The position numbers were made by a program, and so were the translations under genes. 40,372 nt of DNA from a virus: positions 1-40,372 of IMG/VR virus record IMGVR_UViG_3300029983_000048. One strand, 5' to 3'. Numbering within the stretch: position 1 is the stretch's first letter; each line of letters starts with the position of its first letter. This document shows, piece by piece, positions 12,712-40,235 of the stretch. Below the pieces are notes generated by a model, which searched no databases, was not told the DNA's origin, and saw nothing but the letters and a program-made list of their open reading frames with translations.

Positions 12712-13412
12712 TGACTTGGGTTTTAATATTTAGTGTTATACTTGTATTTTTTGTTATTAAGTATATAGTTGAAAAGCTAATAAAATTAGGAAGAAAAAAT
12801 ATAATTGTTGTGGAAAAAAATAATTTGTCATTTTTTGAGGAATATGATTATTCTTATAATTATTTTTCTGAAAAAAGAATGCGACCTCAATATTTACATA
12901 AAATTCTTGATAGTTTTAAAACTAAGACAAATGTAGATGGTCTGGTTACTATTGAATCTAAATTTAATAATATTCATTATGCTATTTTTGATTTAGATTC
13001 TGGTGATAATTTAGTTTTATTTAGACATTTATATCAAGATACACCTTATGCATTATTTTCTAGTAGTGCAGATCATTATTGGGGTATAATAGATTTACCA
13101 TTTAATAATATTAAAGATATTTTTTATGATACGAATTGGAAAGTATGTAATGATCAAAATTATGTGTCTTTTTCTAGAAGATCAGAACTTCTATTATTGA
13201 GAGGAGTATATGAAACTGAAGACAGAAAACCGAAATTACATTCAACTAAAGGAATTTTTTCAAAAAATTTTCAACTTTTTATAGATAAATTGTGTATATA
13301 TTATAACAACGAGGGATTAGAATTTTCAGTATTAAGATTCAAAGATCCAAAAATGTTGATTAAATTTAATAGAAGAAGAAAATTGCAACAATTAAAAGAT
13401 ATAGAAAAATGA
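12687..13412 (+). CDS. Membrane-anchored protein with KL tail
   Basis: A 241-residue protein. Residues about 8-27 form one transmembrane segment (FIMTWVLIFSVILVFFVIKY), then a basic stretch and a soluble domain of about 190 residues rich in Tyr, Phe and Asp. The soluble part is probably cytoplasmic by the positive-inside rule (basic residues just after the segment). It ends in a KL tail (KFNRRRKLQQLKDIEK). No catalytic motif seen. Confidence 0.75.
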   Translation: MSVQKQFIMTWVLIFSVILVFFVIKYIVEKLIKLGRKNIIVVEKNNLSFFEEYDYSYNYFSEKRMRPQYLHKILDSFKTKTNVDGLVTIESKFNNIHYAIFDLDSGDNLVLFRHLYQDTPYALFSSSADHYWGIIDLPFNNIKDIFYDTNWKVCNDQNYVSFSRRSELLLLRGVYETEDRKPKLHSTKGIFSKNFQLFIDKLCIYYNNEGLEFSVLRFKDPKMLIKFNRRRKLQQLKDIEK

Positions 13413-13684
13413 AAATATCAGAATTTAAAAATTCAATTGATTGGAAAATGTTTGGAAAAATTATGTCTATAATTTCTTTTATTATATTATTTTCAATATT
13501 ACAACCAAATAGTATTTTAAATTTGGCACAAGGAATTTCGTTTATATTAATAATATCTGTATCACTTTTGAGTAGAGTATATATTGAATTAAAATTAAGA
13601 GAAACCTCAAAAATTCTCACTATTAAAGAATTAAGAATTAAAAAATTAAAAAAATTAAATAGATGGAAATTCCTAAAAAATTAG
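13409..13684 (+). CDS. Two-helix membrane protein with KL tail
   Basis: A 91-residue protein with two predicted transmembrane segments (MSIISFIILFSIL and ISFILIISVSLLSRVYI) and a basic cytoplasmic C-terminus ending in the KL tail KELRIKKLKKLNRWKFLKN. It overlaps the upstream gene by 4 nt. Together with 12687, 16243 and 22237 it shows that the tail also occurs on or near membrane proteins. Confidence 0.75.
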   Translation: MKISEFKNSIDWKMFGKIMSIISFIILFSILQPNSILNLAQGISFILIISVSLLSRVYIELKLRETSKILTIKELRIKKLKKLNRWKFLKN

Positions 13685-14768: not shown

Positions 14769-15075
14769 TAACTTATACAATAGAGCAGCAAATTGTGTTG
14801 GAATTGATAGAATATTATTATTAGATAAAAGAAAAGAATTACTATATTCTGCGGCTATTGCTTTATTCAATCAAATATGGAATTGTAAATTTGAAATTAT
14901 AAATAGTACATATCACAGTTTTAAATTTAAAAAAATAGAGTCGTTATTTATTAGAAATTTTACTTATAATCTATTTGAGCTTATTGATAATCAACTTTAC
15001 TATTTTGACACTGAATATGAACGTAAAGTATTTTTAAGAAAATATAAATTAAAACAATTAGAAAATATAAATTAA
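14722..15075 (+). CDS. KL-tailed protein with doubtful start, possible frameshift
   Basis: The main frame has no Met after 14722, and that start would overlap the upstream gene by 47 nt, more than usual. In the -1-related frame an ATG at 14765 sits in the usual ATGA overlap and encodes MITYTIEQQIVLELIEYYY before a TAG at 14822. Joining the two at the ATTATTATTAG run would give a natural protein continuing LDKRKELLYSAAIALFNQIW and ending in the KL tail VFLRKYKLKQLENIN. The choice is a frameshift mutation, a sequencing error or recoding. Confidence 0.6.
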   Translation: MLEINYKIFLIIWINDNLYNRAANCVGIDRILLLDKRKELLYSAAIALFNQIWNCKFEIINSTYHSFKFKKIESLFIRNFTYNLFELIDNQLYYFDTEYERKVFLRKYKLKQLENIN

Positions 15076-15347
15076 TGAAAAAATTAAGTTATAAAGATTT
15101 CAAAATTGGTCAAAAAGTTACTTGTGCTAAAACTTGTCATGATGGTAATAATGATGATTTTTATGAACAGCATTTGACTGTTGGTAAACAATATAAAATT
15201 GAGGATCTTGATTTTCATTTTCCAGAAAAAATGTGTATTCGTAGTGATAATAATAAAGTTAGTATGTTTATGCCTATTGAGTTTTTTGATAATATTAAAT
15301 ATATTCGGAAATTGAAATTAGAAAAAATTAAAAATGCTCAAAAGTGA
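15075..15347 (+). CDS. GD-barrel-like protein with KL tail
   Basis: A 90-residue protein with a FKIGQKVTCAKTCHDGNN opening, then VGKQYKIEDLD, matching the plan of the genes at 7742 and 26147. It ends in the KL tail KYIRKLKLEKIKNAQK. One-base overlap with the upstream stop (TAATG). Probably a small beta barrel of unknown function. Confidence 0.8.
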   Translation: MKKLSYKDFKIGQKVTCAKTCHDGNNDDFYEQHLTVGKQYKIEDLDFHFPEKMCIRSDNNKVSMFMPIEFFDNIKYIRKLKLEKIKNAQK

Positions 15348-31333: not shown

Positions 31334-31641
31334 GTGAGTCTATTAAAATTTTATATGTTGATAATATAGAGAAATTTGATTATAACTTTTTACCAATTTA
31401 TAAAAAATGTGATAATGGTAAATATTTTCAATTGTGTATATCTTCATTAGGTGAAGATGTTTTGAAAGAAAATGCTGATCCTACAGATTTAATTTTTGCG
31501 ATTGAAGGATTTTCAATTTCAACATTTAATGCAATATCTAAAAAAATGAATGTTAAATTTGTTAATGATAAAGAAAAAGAAGTAATAGAAGAAAAGGTAA
31601 TAATTATTAAAAAATATATTAAATATAATAAATATGAATAA
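31330..31641 (+). CDS. Protein of unknown function before radical SAM gene
   Basis: A 103-residue protein (ESIKILYVDNIEKFDYNFLP...) of alpha/beta character with a basic end (KVIIIKKYIKYNKYE). It overlaps the radical SAM gene by 8 nt, so the two may act together, possibly as enzyme and partner or substrate. No Cys-rich or leader-peptide motif was seen. Confidence 0.7.
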   Translation: MSESIKILYVDNIEKFDYNFLPIYKKCDNGKYFQLCISSLGEDVLKENADPTDLIFAIEGFSISTFNAISKKMNVKFVNDKEKEVIEEKVIIIKKYIKYNKYE

Positions 31642-32851
31642 AACAGCGGAAAAGTTAAGTGAAATAGAACTTATTGATGGTTCTATTGCAAAAATTAAAG
31701 ATACTAAAGATTATAAAGCATTAAAAAGTGATGGCTATAATTTTTTCTTTAATAAGAAAGACGGCTATTTTGTTAGATGGGGAAAATTTTCTGATTATTC
31801 AAAAAAATCAGGTGAAATACAAAATTTAGATTTTAAAATGAAATTTTTGCCATTATGGTCTAAAATTTGGAACGAAAAATTCAATTTAAGAGAATTTTTT
31901 GCTGATTTAGATACTGATGCAGATTATCATAAAATGATTCCAGATATCGTAGATTTTGAGGTCTCTACCAAGTGTGATTTTGGTTGTAGTTTTTGTTATA
32001 AATCTAATAAAAGTAGTGGTGAATATATATCAACAGAAGATTTTACTAATGCTATAGATAAGTTACCAAAATCAATTTGTCAATGTGCATTGGGTATTGG
32101 AAATGTTGATCAGCCTAATTTATTAGAATTAATGAATGTCCTTATTGATAGAGGAATTAAGCCAAATATAACAATAAATGGTGATAAGTTAACAACAGAA
32201 ATATTGAATATGCTAAGTTCTAAATGTGGGGCCATCGCAATTTCACATTATTCTGATAATCTAACATTTAATACTGTTTATGAGTTGGCTACTGTTAGAG
32301 GAATGAAACAAATTAATATACATTCTTTTTTATCCGAAAATACATATGAAAAATGTCTTGGTCTTGTTGAAAAAATTGAAACTGATAGTAGATTGAAAGA
32401 TTTAAATGCTGTAGTTTTTCTTTCTATGAAAAAGAAAGGAAATGCACTAAAAAATAATTATTCTACATTGAGTAAAGAAAAATTTGATTTTTTATCTAAC
32501 CTATTATTAGAAAAAAAATTAAGATTCGGTTGGGACTCCTGTTCGTGCCAGAACTTCATACGCTCAATTGAACACAGAGAAGATAAAGAAAAAATTATAG
32601 AGTGTTGTGATCCATGTGAGGCTTCAATTGCGTCTAGTTACTTCTCATTAGAAGATGGCGGTACATATTATCCATGTAGTTTTTGTGAAGGAGTTGAATA
32701 TGCGCCTGGTGATTGGAAAAAAGGTATAAGTTTAAAGAATTGTAATGATTTTTTGAAAGATGTTTGGTTCCATAAAAAAACTAGAGAATTTGCAAATAAT
32801 AACATTGAATGTAGAAAAAAATGTATTTCTTGCCCAGTTTTTGAAATATAA
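31634..32851 (+). CDS. Radical SAM protein with Cys-rich C-terminus
   Basis: A 405-residue protein. The radical SAM iron-sulfur motif C-x3-C-x2-C is at 114-121 (STKCDFGCSFCYKSN), followed by the barrel. The C-terminal part has many Cys (WDSCSC, CCDPCEA, YPCSFCEG, and CRKKCISCPVF at the end), the layout of SPASM/Twitch proteins with extra clusters. Such enzymes modify peptides or act as anaerobic maturases; the substrate is unknown. It ends at a terminator. No KL tail. Confidence 0.88.
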   Translation: MNKTAEKLSEIELIDGSIAKIKDTKDYKALKSDGYNFFFNKKDGYFVRWGKFSDYSKKSGEIQNLDFKMKFLPLWSKIWNEKFNLREFFADLDTDADYHKMIPDIVDFEVSTKCDFGCSFCYKSNKSSGEYISTEDFTNAIDKLPKSICQCALGIGNVDQPNLLELMNVLIDRGIKPNITINGDKLTTEILNMLSSKCGAIAISHYSDNLTFNTVYELATVRGMKQINIHSFLSENTYEKCLGLVEKIETDSRLKDLNAVVFLSMKKKGNALKNNYSTLSKEKFDFLSNLLLEKKLRFGWDSCSCQNFIRSIEHREDKEKIIECCDPCEASIASSYFSLEDGGTYYPCSFCEGVEYAPGDWKKGISLKNCNDFLKDVWFHKKTREFANNNIECRKKCISCPVFEI

Positions 32852-38402: not shown

Positions 38403-38857
38403 TTAAATATTTTACATATAATATTTCTAATTTCAAAGGGTATAGACTTAAAGTTGAAGAATCAAATCTTAAATGCTTTAAAAAGATAATTTATAATGGT
38501 TTTAAGATTATTGAAAGTTCATTAGATTTCATAAATTATGAGATTGATTTTAAATTGATTAGATGCCTTAAATTAAAAAAAATAAATGATATAATTCGTC
38601 CAATTAGTGTAGAAGATAGAATACTTAAATTATTGGAGAGTTCAAAAGAGGTTGATAAAAGTTTTATTTACCCTTCATATTCTGGATATGGTGGATATGG
38701 TACTTTTTCTAATATTACAACATATTATTATGATAATGGTGATGATGATGAAATTGTATATAATAAATCTCAAAATAAAGAAAGGAATAGATATCAATCT
38801 AAAATATATGCTCAAAAAGCAAAAATATATGAAAATACGTCAAGGTTTTGTAAGTAA
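38399..38857 (+). CDS. Protein with an internal KL-tail-like motif
   Basis: A 152-residue protein. At about residues 56-66 it has LIRCLKLKKINDI, which would be a good KL tail if the protein ended there, but about 85 further residues follow, with a Gly/Tyr-rich part (YPSYSGYGGYGTF) and an acidic run (DNGDDDE). Its last 29 nt overlap the start of the next gene. It may be a fusion of a tailed gene with other coding sequence. Confidence 0.65.
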   Translation: MIKYFTYNISNFKGYRLKVEESNLKCFKKIIYNGFKIIESSLDFINYEIDFKLIRCLKLKKINDIIRPISVEDRILKLLESSKEVDKSFIYPSYSGYGGYGTFSNITTYYYDNGDDDEIVYNKSQNKERNRYQSKIYAQKAKIYENTSRFCK

Positions 38858-39287
38858 TTCTTCATCTAGTTCTTTTCTTATTATAGGAAAAGAGATAGAA
38901 ATTAAAAATATCACACCAAAGATGATTAAAGAGAAGAAAATAATAGCATTAGGTGAAGATATAATTGAAGAAGGTGTTGATGTCTTTCAAATAAAAACAG
39001 TTGAAGAATTAGCATTTTTGAAGTCTATGTTTGATAAGTATGGTGAATATTTTAATTTTTTAGATGTTTTTGTATATAAAATTGATGATGATGGTAATGG
39101 AGAAATTGATTTTTCTAATTCACCAAAAACAGGAATATTAAAATATTTTACTGGATTTAGAGATTATAAATTTTCAGATGATTTAAATAAATTAAAAAAT
39201 AGATATGATGAATATGATGAATTTGAGCATGGAATGCAAAAATATTTAAGATCAAAAAAGATAAACAAAATAGAAAAATCACAATAG
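38829..39287 (+). CDS. KIRxGFVSNSSSSSF-module protein 1
   Basis: The frame is open much further upstream, but the Met at 38829 starts the module MKIRQGFVSNSSSSSFLI shared with two downstream genes, so it is the real start. The 152-residue protein continues with an acidic alpha/beta body unlike the other two. The end YLRSKKINKIEKSQ resembles a KL tail. The module is widespread, in my experience, in small bacterial and phage proteins of unknown function. Confidence 0.8.
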   Translation: MKIRQGFVSNSSSSSFLIIGKEIEIKNITPKMIKEKKIIALGEDIIEEGVDVFQIKTVEELAFLKSMFDKYGEYFNFLDVFVYKIDDDGNGEIDFSNSPKTGILKYFTGFRDYKFSDDLNKLKNRYDEYDEFEHGMQKYLRSKKINKIEKSQ

Positions 39288-39488
39288 ATGAATAGCATTA
39301 AGGAAATTTGTAGTATTACTTGTTGCCCCATTTGTGGTAGTGATGTAAAACATGTAAGACAATCATTTTTATTTAGTTGTCAAAATTGTAGTTGGACAGG
39401 ATTTGATGATAATTTAATAACTAAAATAAAATATACAAAAAATCAAAGAAAATATAAATTATTAAAAATAGAAAAAAATGAAAATTAG
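39288..39488 (+). CDS. Zinc-ribbon protein with KL-like tail
   Basis: A 66-residue protein with a CxxC pair (CCPICGSDVKH) and another (FSCQNCSWTGFDD), a four-Cys zinc ribbon. The end NQRKYKLLKIEKNEN is a KL-tail variant. It directly follows the preceding stop and overlaps the next module gene by 11 nt. Confidence 0.75.
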   Translation: MNSIKEICSITCCPICGSDVKHVRQSFLFSCQNCSWTGFDDNLITKIKYTKNQRKYKLLKIEKNEN

Positions 39489-39831
39489 ACAAGGCTTTGT
39501 AAGTAATAGTAGCAGTAGTTCTTTTGTAGTTTTTTTACCAGAAAATTTTATTGAAACGATAGATTTTGATAAAATTGCAAATGGTGATGAAAAGTTCCCA
39601 ACAAAGAATTTTAAAAAATTAATTGAAAAATTAATTGAAGATGAAGGATTATACATGGAAGAAATGTATGACTTCTTCAAGAAGAAAGAACGTGATTATG
39701 ATCTTAGAGATATTTTAGATGAAATTCTTGAGCCATATGTTATTGCATCAATGGAAACTGGACCAGATGAAGGTCAAATAATGGTAGCTGATAGAGTGCA
39801 AATTGAAAAAATATTAGCATTAAAAAAATAA
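39478..39831 (+). CDS. KIRxGFVSNSSSSSF-module protein 2
   Basis: A 117-residue protein starting with the module MKIRQGFVSNSSSSSFVV. The body is helical and acidic (LIEKLIEDEGLYMEEMYDFF), unrelated to the bodies of its two module neighbours. No KL tail. The opposite-strand frame here mirrors the Ser run and is a shadow. Confidence 0.8.
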   Translation: MKIRQGFVSNSSSSSFVVFLPENFIETIDFDKIANGDEKFPTKNFKKLIEKLIEDEGLYMEEMYDFFKKKERDYDLRDILDEILEPYVIASMETGPDEGQIMVADRVQIEKILALKK

Positions 39832-39836
39832 ATAAT

Positions 39837-40235
39837 ATGAAAATTAGAACAGGTTTTGTATCGAATAGTAGTAGTAGTTCTTTTATTTTAAGAGGAACTA
39901 AATTGAAAAGTGATGATATTATCAGAATCTTGAATATTTCTCGCGAAGATATGACGGATATTGACGATAACAATGAATATGAAATTTATGAGTTTTTGGA
40001 GGAAAAACTTGCTGGTTTTACAGTACATGTAGATGGTAATTATTTTGGTAATCAAGATTTTAGTACACTTATTGTAGGTGAACGTCTTGGTAGATTAAAT
40101 GATGGTGATGTTGTAGAATTAAAGGAATATACACCAGAAGAAAATCAAAAACTTATTGAAAAATTCGAAGCAATTGGTTTTAAAGATGTTAAGTTAAAAA
40201 CTTATGTACAAATGGTCTCAAACGATAATTATTAA
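39837..40235 (+). CDS. KIRxGFVSNSSSSSF-module protein 3
   Basis: A 132-residue protein starting with the module MKIRTGFVSNSSSSSFIL, followed by an alpha/beta body (SDDIIRILNISREDMTDIDD, then FTVHVDGNYFGNQDFSTLIV). Different from the other two after the module. It ends directly before the IMP dehydrogenase-like gene. Confidence 0.8.
   Translation: MKIRTGFVSNSSSSSFILRGTKLKSDDIIRILNISREDMTDIDDNNEYEIYEFLEEKLAGFTVHVDGNYFGNQDFSTLIVGERLGRLNDGDVVELKEYTPEENQKLIEKFEAIGFKDVKLKTYVQMVSNDNY

Follow-up and report, generated by a model that had tools for sequence, protein, structure and literature searches.

Three neighboring genes of a virus contig code for proteins that share a 16-residue N-terminal module on otherwise unrelated bodies, and this module, MK(I/V)RxGFVSNSSSSSF, probably serves as the substrate sequence for a radical-SAM maturase dedicated to it, with the modification expected within the module, at or near N10-S11-S12. 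The module and the enzyme are linked, distributed together, and vary together; the module is selected at the protein level and is restricted to the N-terminus, and the enzyme has a maturase-like fold. Systems in which a radical-SAM maturase acts on substrates that have a conserved N-terminus are known; what is proposed to be new is its use by phages on whole proteins, in arrays, and with a Cys-free NSS motif. The stretch analyzed (the window) is a contig of 40,372 bases with a GC content of 24.6%, and its features are the following.

31634..32851, plus strand: radical-SAM protein of 405 aa, the proposed maturase, with CX3CX2C (CDFGCSFC) and cysteines C303, C328, C348, and C397/C400
38829..39287, plus strand: module protein 1, 152 aa, body cluster 10 (11 members), N-terminus MKIRQGFVSNSSSSSFLI
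38829..38876, plus strand: module copy 1, MKIRQGFVSNSSSSSF
39478..39831, plus strand: module protein 2, 117 aa, body cluster 8 (12 members, the LPENF family), N-terminus MKIRQGFVSNSSSSSFVV
39478..39525, plus strand: module copy 2, MKIRQGFVSNSSSSSF
39837..40235, plus strand: module protein 3, 132 aa, body cluster 14 (7 members), N-terminus MKIRTGFVSNSSSSSFIL
39837..39884, plus strand: module copy 3, MKIRTGFVSNSSSSSF

The three module ORFs (38829-39287, 39478-39831, and 39837-40235) all start with ATG, and their shared consensus is MKIRxGFVSNSSSSSF. The original prediction, made from the sequence of the window, described three neighboring proteins with a common module and unrelated bodies, and this is confirmed, as all three ORFs are present and their bodies belong to three separate clusters. 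A search for further module proteins, also suggested there, finds exactly these three copies in the whole window (40,372 bases) and none with the reversed pattern. The module occurs beyond these three genes and this phage, and each of the window bodies has module-bearing relatives elsewhere. No family scores above its cut-off for the three window proteins in Pfam or NCBIfam, or for ten body representatives in Pfam, and the AF2 model of the protein encoded at 39478 (pLDDT of 51, lowest in the module part) is too poor for use. The segment between module genes 1 and 2 (39288-39488) codes for a small module-less protein with two CxxC pairs (CPICGSD...CQNCSW). KL-rich C-terminal tails (e.g., RKLKLEKLN) are found by a crude rule on ∼24 of the 83 window ORFs of at least 70 aa, with examples at 13409-13684, 15075-15347, and 38829-39287; the last of these, module protein 1, bears both tags, the module and the KL-like C-terminal tail LRSKKINKIEKSQ.

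A degenerate DNA pattern of the module matches at least 120 stretches in IMG/VR viral contigs, with up to seven exact copies within ∼3 kb among the matches listed, and a four-serine version of the pattern has no matches in these contigs, so the recurrence of the module is not due to chance. Phages code for 1 to 10 module proteins each, organized in arrays. The 431 complete, distinct module proteins taken from the fetched loci form 100 body clusters at a blastp E value of 1e-3, 67 of which are singletons, and the remainders behind the module are mostly ∼65 to 470 aa, some with zinc-ribbon-like cysteines. With one representative for each of the 100 clusters, information is ∼4 bits in the module and <1 bit past position 18, and M1, K2, R4, N10, S11, and S12 are present in 100/100 representatives, some of them being fixed by the collecting expression. 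In a set of 652 modules spanning three types, all have N10 and S11 (partly fixed by the search expression) and 650 have S12, S13 and S14 accept T, A, and C, and G6 is replaced by D in 77 copies, which represent a second module type. Only six stretches do not lie directly behind a start codon, and all six have a single extra residue (MAKIR or MGKIR), showing that the module is strictly N-terminal. A module that is part of one conserved fold, the alternative raised with the original prediction, is not supported, in view of the ∼100 body clusters, of conservation that ends past F16 and two aliphatic residues, and of a paralog that is without the module and keeps its body, as described below.

In the proposed mechanism, a maturase that is normally encoded once per genome (31634-32851 in the window) would act on an array of 1 to 10 small phage proteins with a common N-terminus. 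The enzyme would bind the module, with specificity at positions 2 to 9 (K2-R4-x-G/D6-F7-V8-S/T9) that varies with the enzyme clade, and would carry out a modification by radical chemistry. The most likely site of this modification is within the module, around the invariant N10-S11-S12, and epimerization, oxidation, or a cross-link to F7 or F16 are candidate chemistries. The bodies may be diversified effectors that need the modified N-terminus for function or stability, and the phage module proteins probably act on the host. The module is without Cys, so no thioether is expected within it; D at position 6 indicates that glycine is not required there, and T, A, or C at positions 13 and 14 makes those two serines unlikely to be essential. 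A glycyl-radical site was considered and rejected, as G6 is D in the 77 copies of the second type.

The module could alternatively be a docking leader only, with the radical-SAM enzyme acting on the body or the C-terminal tail; this is rather unlikely, but it would follow the established logic of multi-precursor RiPP systems, in which one leader serves many bodies. Some body families, such as those of the window gene 39837-40235, L170, L021, and L195, have C-terminal ends whose conservation equals or exceeds that of the remaining body (QMVSNDNY, GAGRNG, SxH, and GTRxC), and the QMVSNDNY C-terminus of module protein 3 is nearly invariant within its cluster. However, there is no conserved tail in other clusters, among them the clusters to which window proteins 1 and 2 belong, the bodies have no common residue pattern to modify, and the strict invariance of N10-S11-S12 appears to go beyond what a leader usually needs.

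The fold predicted for the protein encoded at 31634-32851 is nearest to those of two peptide maturases, SkfB and SuiB. No curated family model in Pfam or NCBIfam reaches its cut-off for the window enzyme, which scores 24.5 bits with PF04055 (E value of 3.4e-5; cut-off, 29.5) and 15.6 bits with the SPASM model TIGR04085 (cut-off, 27). Its relative L130 scores 57.3 bits with PF04055, and L130 and L141 both pass TIGR04085 (35.4 and 31.5 bits, respectively), with PF13186 passing too. The window enzyme matches PHROG 7293 (E value of 7e-62), and its AF2 model has a pLDDT of 92.7 and matches known peptide maturase folds in Foldseek with an E value of 5e-12. The model aligns with SkfB (Z of 22.5, 300 aligned residues, 3.6 Å) and with SuiB (Z of 22.5, 307 aligned residues), which is also solved with its SuiA precursor peptide (Z of 22), and the other near solved folds are CteB, anSME, PqqE, ChlB with leader, and EpeE, all of which act on peptides or proteins. 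Of the radical-SAM triad, C118 and C121 are present in 57/57 enzyme homologs and the C114 column in 51/57, and C303, C328, and C348 (57/57) with C400 (49/57) are enough for one auxiliary cluster. The N-terminal domain has five strands in the model, and Pfam and NCBIfam report no PqqD-like domain. Triad spacing varies within the enzyme family, from CX3CX2C to CX18CX2C, and is CX7CX2C in the KP27 enzyme.

An improbable alternative is that the enzyme acts on a small molecule, such as a nucleotide analog in the manner of viperin, and that the module proteins bind to the enzyme via the module as its partners or regulators, without being modified. The viperin family does give weak matches (NF038283, E value of 1.9e-7; PADLOC pVip, E value of 7e-8) and viperin-type folds align with a Z of ∼19, but these come later than SkfB and SuiB, which outscore them and align over more residues. 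The putative auxiliary-cluster cysteines are conserved, and 5 to 10 different partners per enzyme would be odd for regulators. Viperin identity is rejected, with 30.6 bits against the NF038283 cut-off of 180.

A maturase that modifies the module is also consistent with the distribution of the two genes in phages. Of 50 records picked by the module alone, 38 encode an enzyme of the window type (E values of 1e-31 to 1e-125), and in the reverse direction, 37 of 41 new records picked by the enzyme alone carry the module in 1 to 8 copies each, with zero matches for the reversed-pattern control. In a background of 36 large phages picked by thymidylate synthase (ThyA), a shorter form of the module pattern is present in one, as a weak match (GFISNSSCT), and the enzyme is strongly matched in none (at most a weak E value of 4e-5); Fisher tests of the co-distribution of module and enzyme against this background give 3e-16 and 1e-12. 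The two are also close together, with a median of 485 bp between the enzyme gene and the nearest module start and 26/36 within 2 kb, whereas randomly placed genes give a null median of ∼24 kb and at most 10/36 within 2 kb in 20,000 draws; in the window, the enzyme and modules are ∼6 kb apart. Records with the enzyme have a mean of 5.2 module copies, versus 1.8 in those without it. Among the roles offered for the module by the original prediction, a signal for modification is thus supported, indirectly but strongly, by a radical-SAM enzyme that is linked to it genome by genome.

Of the 50,697 phage records in GenBank, only 172 contain the enzyme, and nearly all of these are relatives of RB43 and KP27 (Slopekvirus/Pseudotevenvirus and kin), and RB43 and KP27, one tested per genus, have two module genes each. 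The RB43 enzyme gene (L167:7959-9105, corresponding to RB43 92712-93858) is annotated as two overlapping ORFs, the first of which loses similarity near its C-terminus, whereas KP27 has one intact frame; the split may reflect sequencing error or decay.

The linkage is not complete. The enzyme is undetected in 12 of the 50 module-picked records, also by profile search, although several of these may be fragments and two are >210 kb; the module is absent from 4 of the 41 enzyme-picked records. The enzyme-less records G007 and G047, from related phages of >210 kb, keep one module protein, and a neighboring paralog has lost exactly the module with its body kept (MKIEPSSFVVSKK, compared with MKIRNGFVSNSSSSSFVVIKD in the sister gene). 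The body thus persists without the module, and loss in one copy accompanies absence of the enzyme. The tandem paralogs, one with the module and one with a clean in-frame module loss, are at L013:6676-7520 (and in L072), in records in which the enzyme is undetected. Modules that appear intact are kept in other enzyme-less records, which speaks against a strict need for the enzyme, except if these contigs are incomplete or an enzyme is provided by the host.

The same pair is present in cellular genomes, and the enzyme shares a short locus with the module in 17 of 24 module-bearing cellular contigs, with most of the others being cut near the module. Six cellular genomes that were checked have one genuine module gene each; another match in G160 is interrupted by a stop codon and does not count as a module. 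A profile search by the enzyme alone through 291 genomes of Acetatifactor's class identifies six loci, one of which is the known Acetatifactor operon, and in five of the six a module gene with a body of ∼130 to ∼490 aa is directly adjacent. Several of the cassettes in Treponema, Clostridia, and Deltaproteobacteria metagenome-assembled genomes (MAGs) have ordinary chromosomal genes around them. In three Clostridia loci (L458, L459, and L460), the module is on bodies of 276 to 490 aa, and the translation at the edge of the L459 locus ends with HELAHVIEE, a metallopeptidase-like motif.

These chromosomal locations bear on the other roles offered by the original prediction, targeting, packaging, and cleavage, for which no support was found. 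T4 internal proteins have a fixed N-terminal capsid-targeting sequence on clustered, diverse small proteins, and the module is likewise a fixed N-terminal tag on such phage proteins, but it is very improbable that it is a signal of this kind with the enzyme linked for other reasons, as the module has no (I/L)xE prohead-protease site, contigs of Treponema, Clostridia, and Deltaproteobacteria have the same module-enzyme pair next to ordinary genes of the chromosome, and both the enzyme linkage and the matched variation would be left unexplained. A T4-type capsid-targeting sequence is specifically rejected by the lack of any E within the 16-residue module in all window copies. The KP27 module copies lie among uncharacterized genes without known virion roles.

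The matched variation of module and enzyme is more readily accommodated by a module that the enzyme recognizes. When the body of a single cluster is used as the query, with the module left out, the search finds relatives starting with MK(I/L)(K/R)xDF(V/I)TNSSS(A/S)SF, in which G6 is changed to D and S9 to T. In records with this xDFVTNSSS type, the enzyme is also encoded but belongs to a divergent clade (profile E values of 1e-64 to 1e-73, versus ∼1e-105 to 1e-123 for records of the G6/S9 type), and its gene adjoins the module genes in several cases. The three module types require 4 changes on a tree of 128 enzyme sequences, compared with 21.2 when the labels are shuffled, although joint inheritance of a linked cassette could yield part of this signal and the tree alone is no proof of contact. 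The modules of a locus show concerted residues at positions 4, 6, and 9 (0.95 to 0.99, versus 0.71 to 0.88 shuffled), which is not the case at positions 13 and 14.

The original prediction noted that the serine codons differ between the window copies and proposed that the protein sequence is what is kept, and this holds in the larger sample, in which residues 9 to 16 are encoded by 398 different DNA sequences among 431 proteins. Both AGY and TCN codons are used at every Ser position, at near 50:50 at positions 12, 13, and 15, and this free exchange of codons indicates that the protein sequence is under selection; a nucleotide-level signal is rejected. It is scarcely credible that the module and enzyme are a mere recombination unit whose shared N-terminus is kept by gene conversion and not by function, as the arrays of neighboring copies and the within-genome similarity might suggest, because neighboring copies have 26% nucleotide differences but only 10% residue differences across the module, silent sites in the module are less conserved than amino acid sites, one octapeptide has 398 DNA versions, and positions 13 and 14 are not concerted.

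The proposed maturase is similar to SPASM/twitch maturases (SkfB, SuiB, CteB, MftC, PqqE, EpeE, and anSME) in its fold, radical-SAM triad, and putative auxiliary-cluster cysteines, and in its gene arrangement, in which a single enzyme gene neighbors the gene of a substrate whose N-terminus is conserved. It differs from them in that no family cut-off is reached and the spacing from the first to the second Cys ranges from CX3C to CX18C, and in its proposed substrates, which are whole proteins of 80 to 500 aa, many per genome, mostly phage encoded, and with a Cys-free motif. Multi-substrate RiPP systems such as the prochlorosins, with a single lanthionine synthetase and one conserved leader, similarly combine one enzyme and one conserved N-terminal sequence with many divergent downstream sequences; here, however, there are 16 nearly invariant residues with three fixed ones (NSS), the bodies are large, the enzyme is of the radical-SAM type, and the carriers are mostly viruses. 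A module gene works like a RiPP precursor gene, in that it lies near the maturase gene (at a median of 485 bp, and in 5/6 cellular enzyme loci) and codes for a conserved N-terminus and a variable remainder, but with bodies of 80 to 500 aa instead of the usual short core it is not a classical precursor. Both partners are in the PHROG library, the KP27/RB43-type module protein family as PHROG 7397 (E value of 8e-116) and the enzyme as PHROG 7293, each of "unknown function," but the library links them neither together nor to a function, and PHROG 7397 is one of ∼100 body families. No mention of the motif string and no description of the module-enzyme pair was found in the open-access papers searched.

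A single enzyme would provide a common explanation for many "hypothetical" phage proteins, corresponding to ∼100 body families in this sample and including RB43 and KP27 genes. Phages would then encode a RiPP-like system of general modification that acts on proteins instead of short peptides, with a Cys-free motif that points to chemistry other than thioethers, and if the chemistry is confirmed, this would be a new virus-run protein modification system. The module also offers a search handle for phage accessory-gene arrays and for what seems to be an unrecorded variant of Avs-type defense operons.

Lytic phages often use arrays of diverse small proteins to take over the host or to counter its defenses, and by analogy the module arrays may do the same; several bacterial copies are located in Avs/Lamassu-like operons. 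A broader scenario, which is possible but put forward tentatively, is that large phages have their own modification system, in which one maturase and an NSS tag serve diversifying anti-host proteins, and that Avs/Lamassu-type immune operons carry the same pair for defense.

Some of the cellular module-enzyme pairs are, like the genes of Avs1/Lamassu-type operons, located directly behind an Avs1a/LmuA-like hydrolase gene and a trypsin-NACHT gene. Unlike in those operons, the large NTPase scores only 12.8 bits against an Avs1b cut-off of 1500 and matches Avs2 only partly, and the Avs1/Lamassu-type models searched are without the module protein, the enzyme, or two further small genes. The operon is a candidate for an unrecorded defense system of the Avs/Lamassu type. 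Its conserved order is a metallo-beta-lactamase (MBL) hydrolase (Avs1a, 9e-68; LmuA, 3e-62), a trypsin-NACHT NTPase, a ∼140-aa protein, the module protein, the radical-SAM enzyme, and often a ∼310-aa protein. The operon is present in L130, L134, L137, L142, and L148 (Acetatifactor, Clostridia, Lachnospiraceae, Lachnobacterium, and Veillonella, respectively) and partly in L141 (Sulfuricurvum), and it is whole where the locus is uncut.
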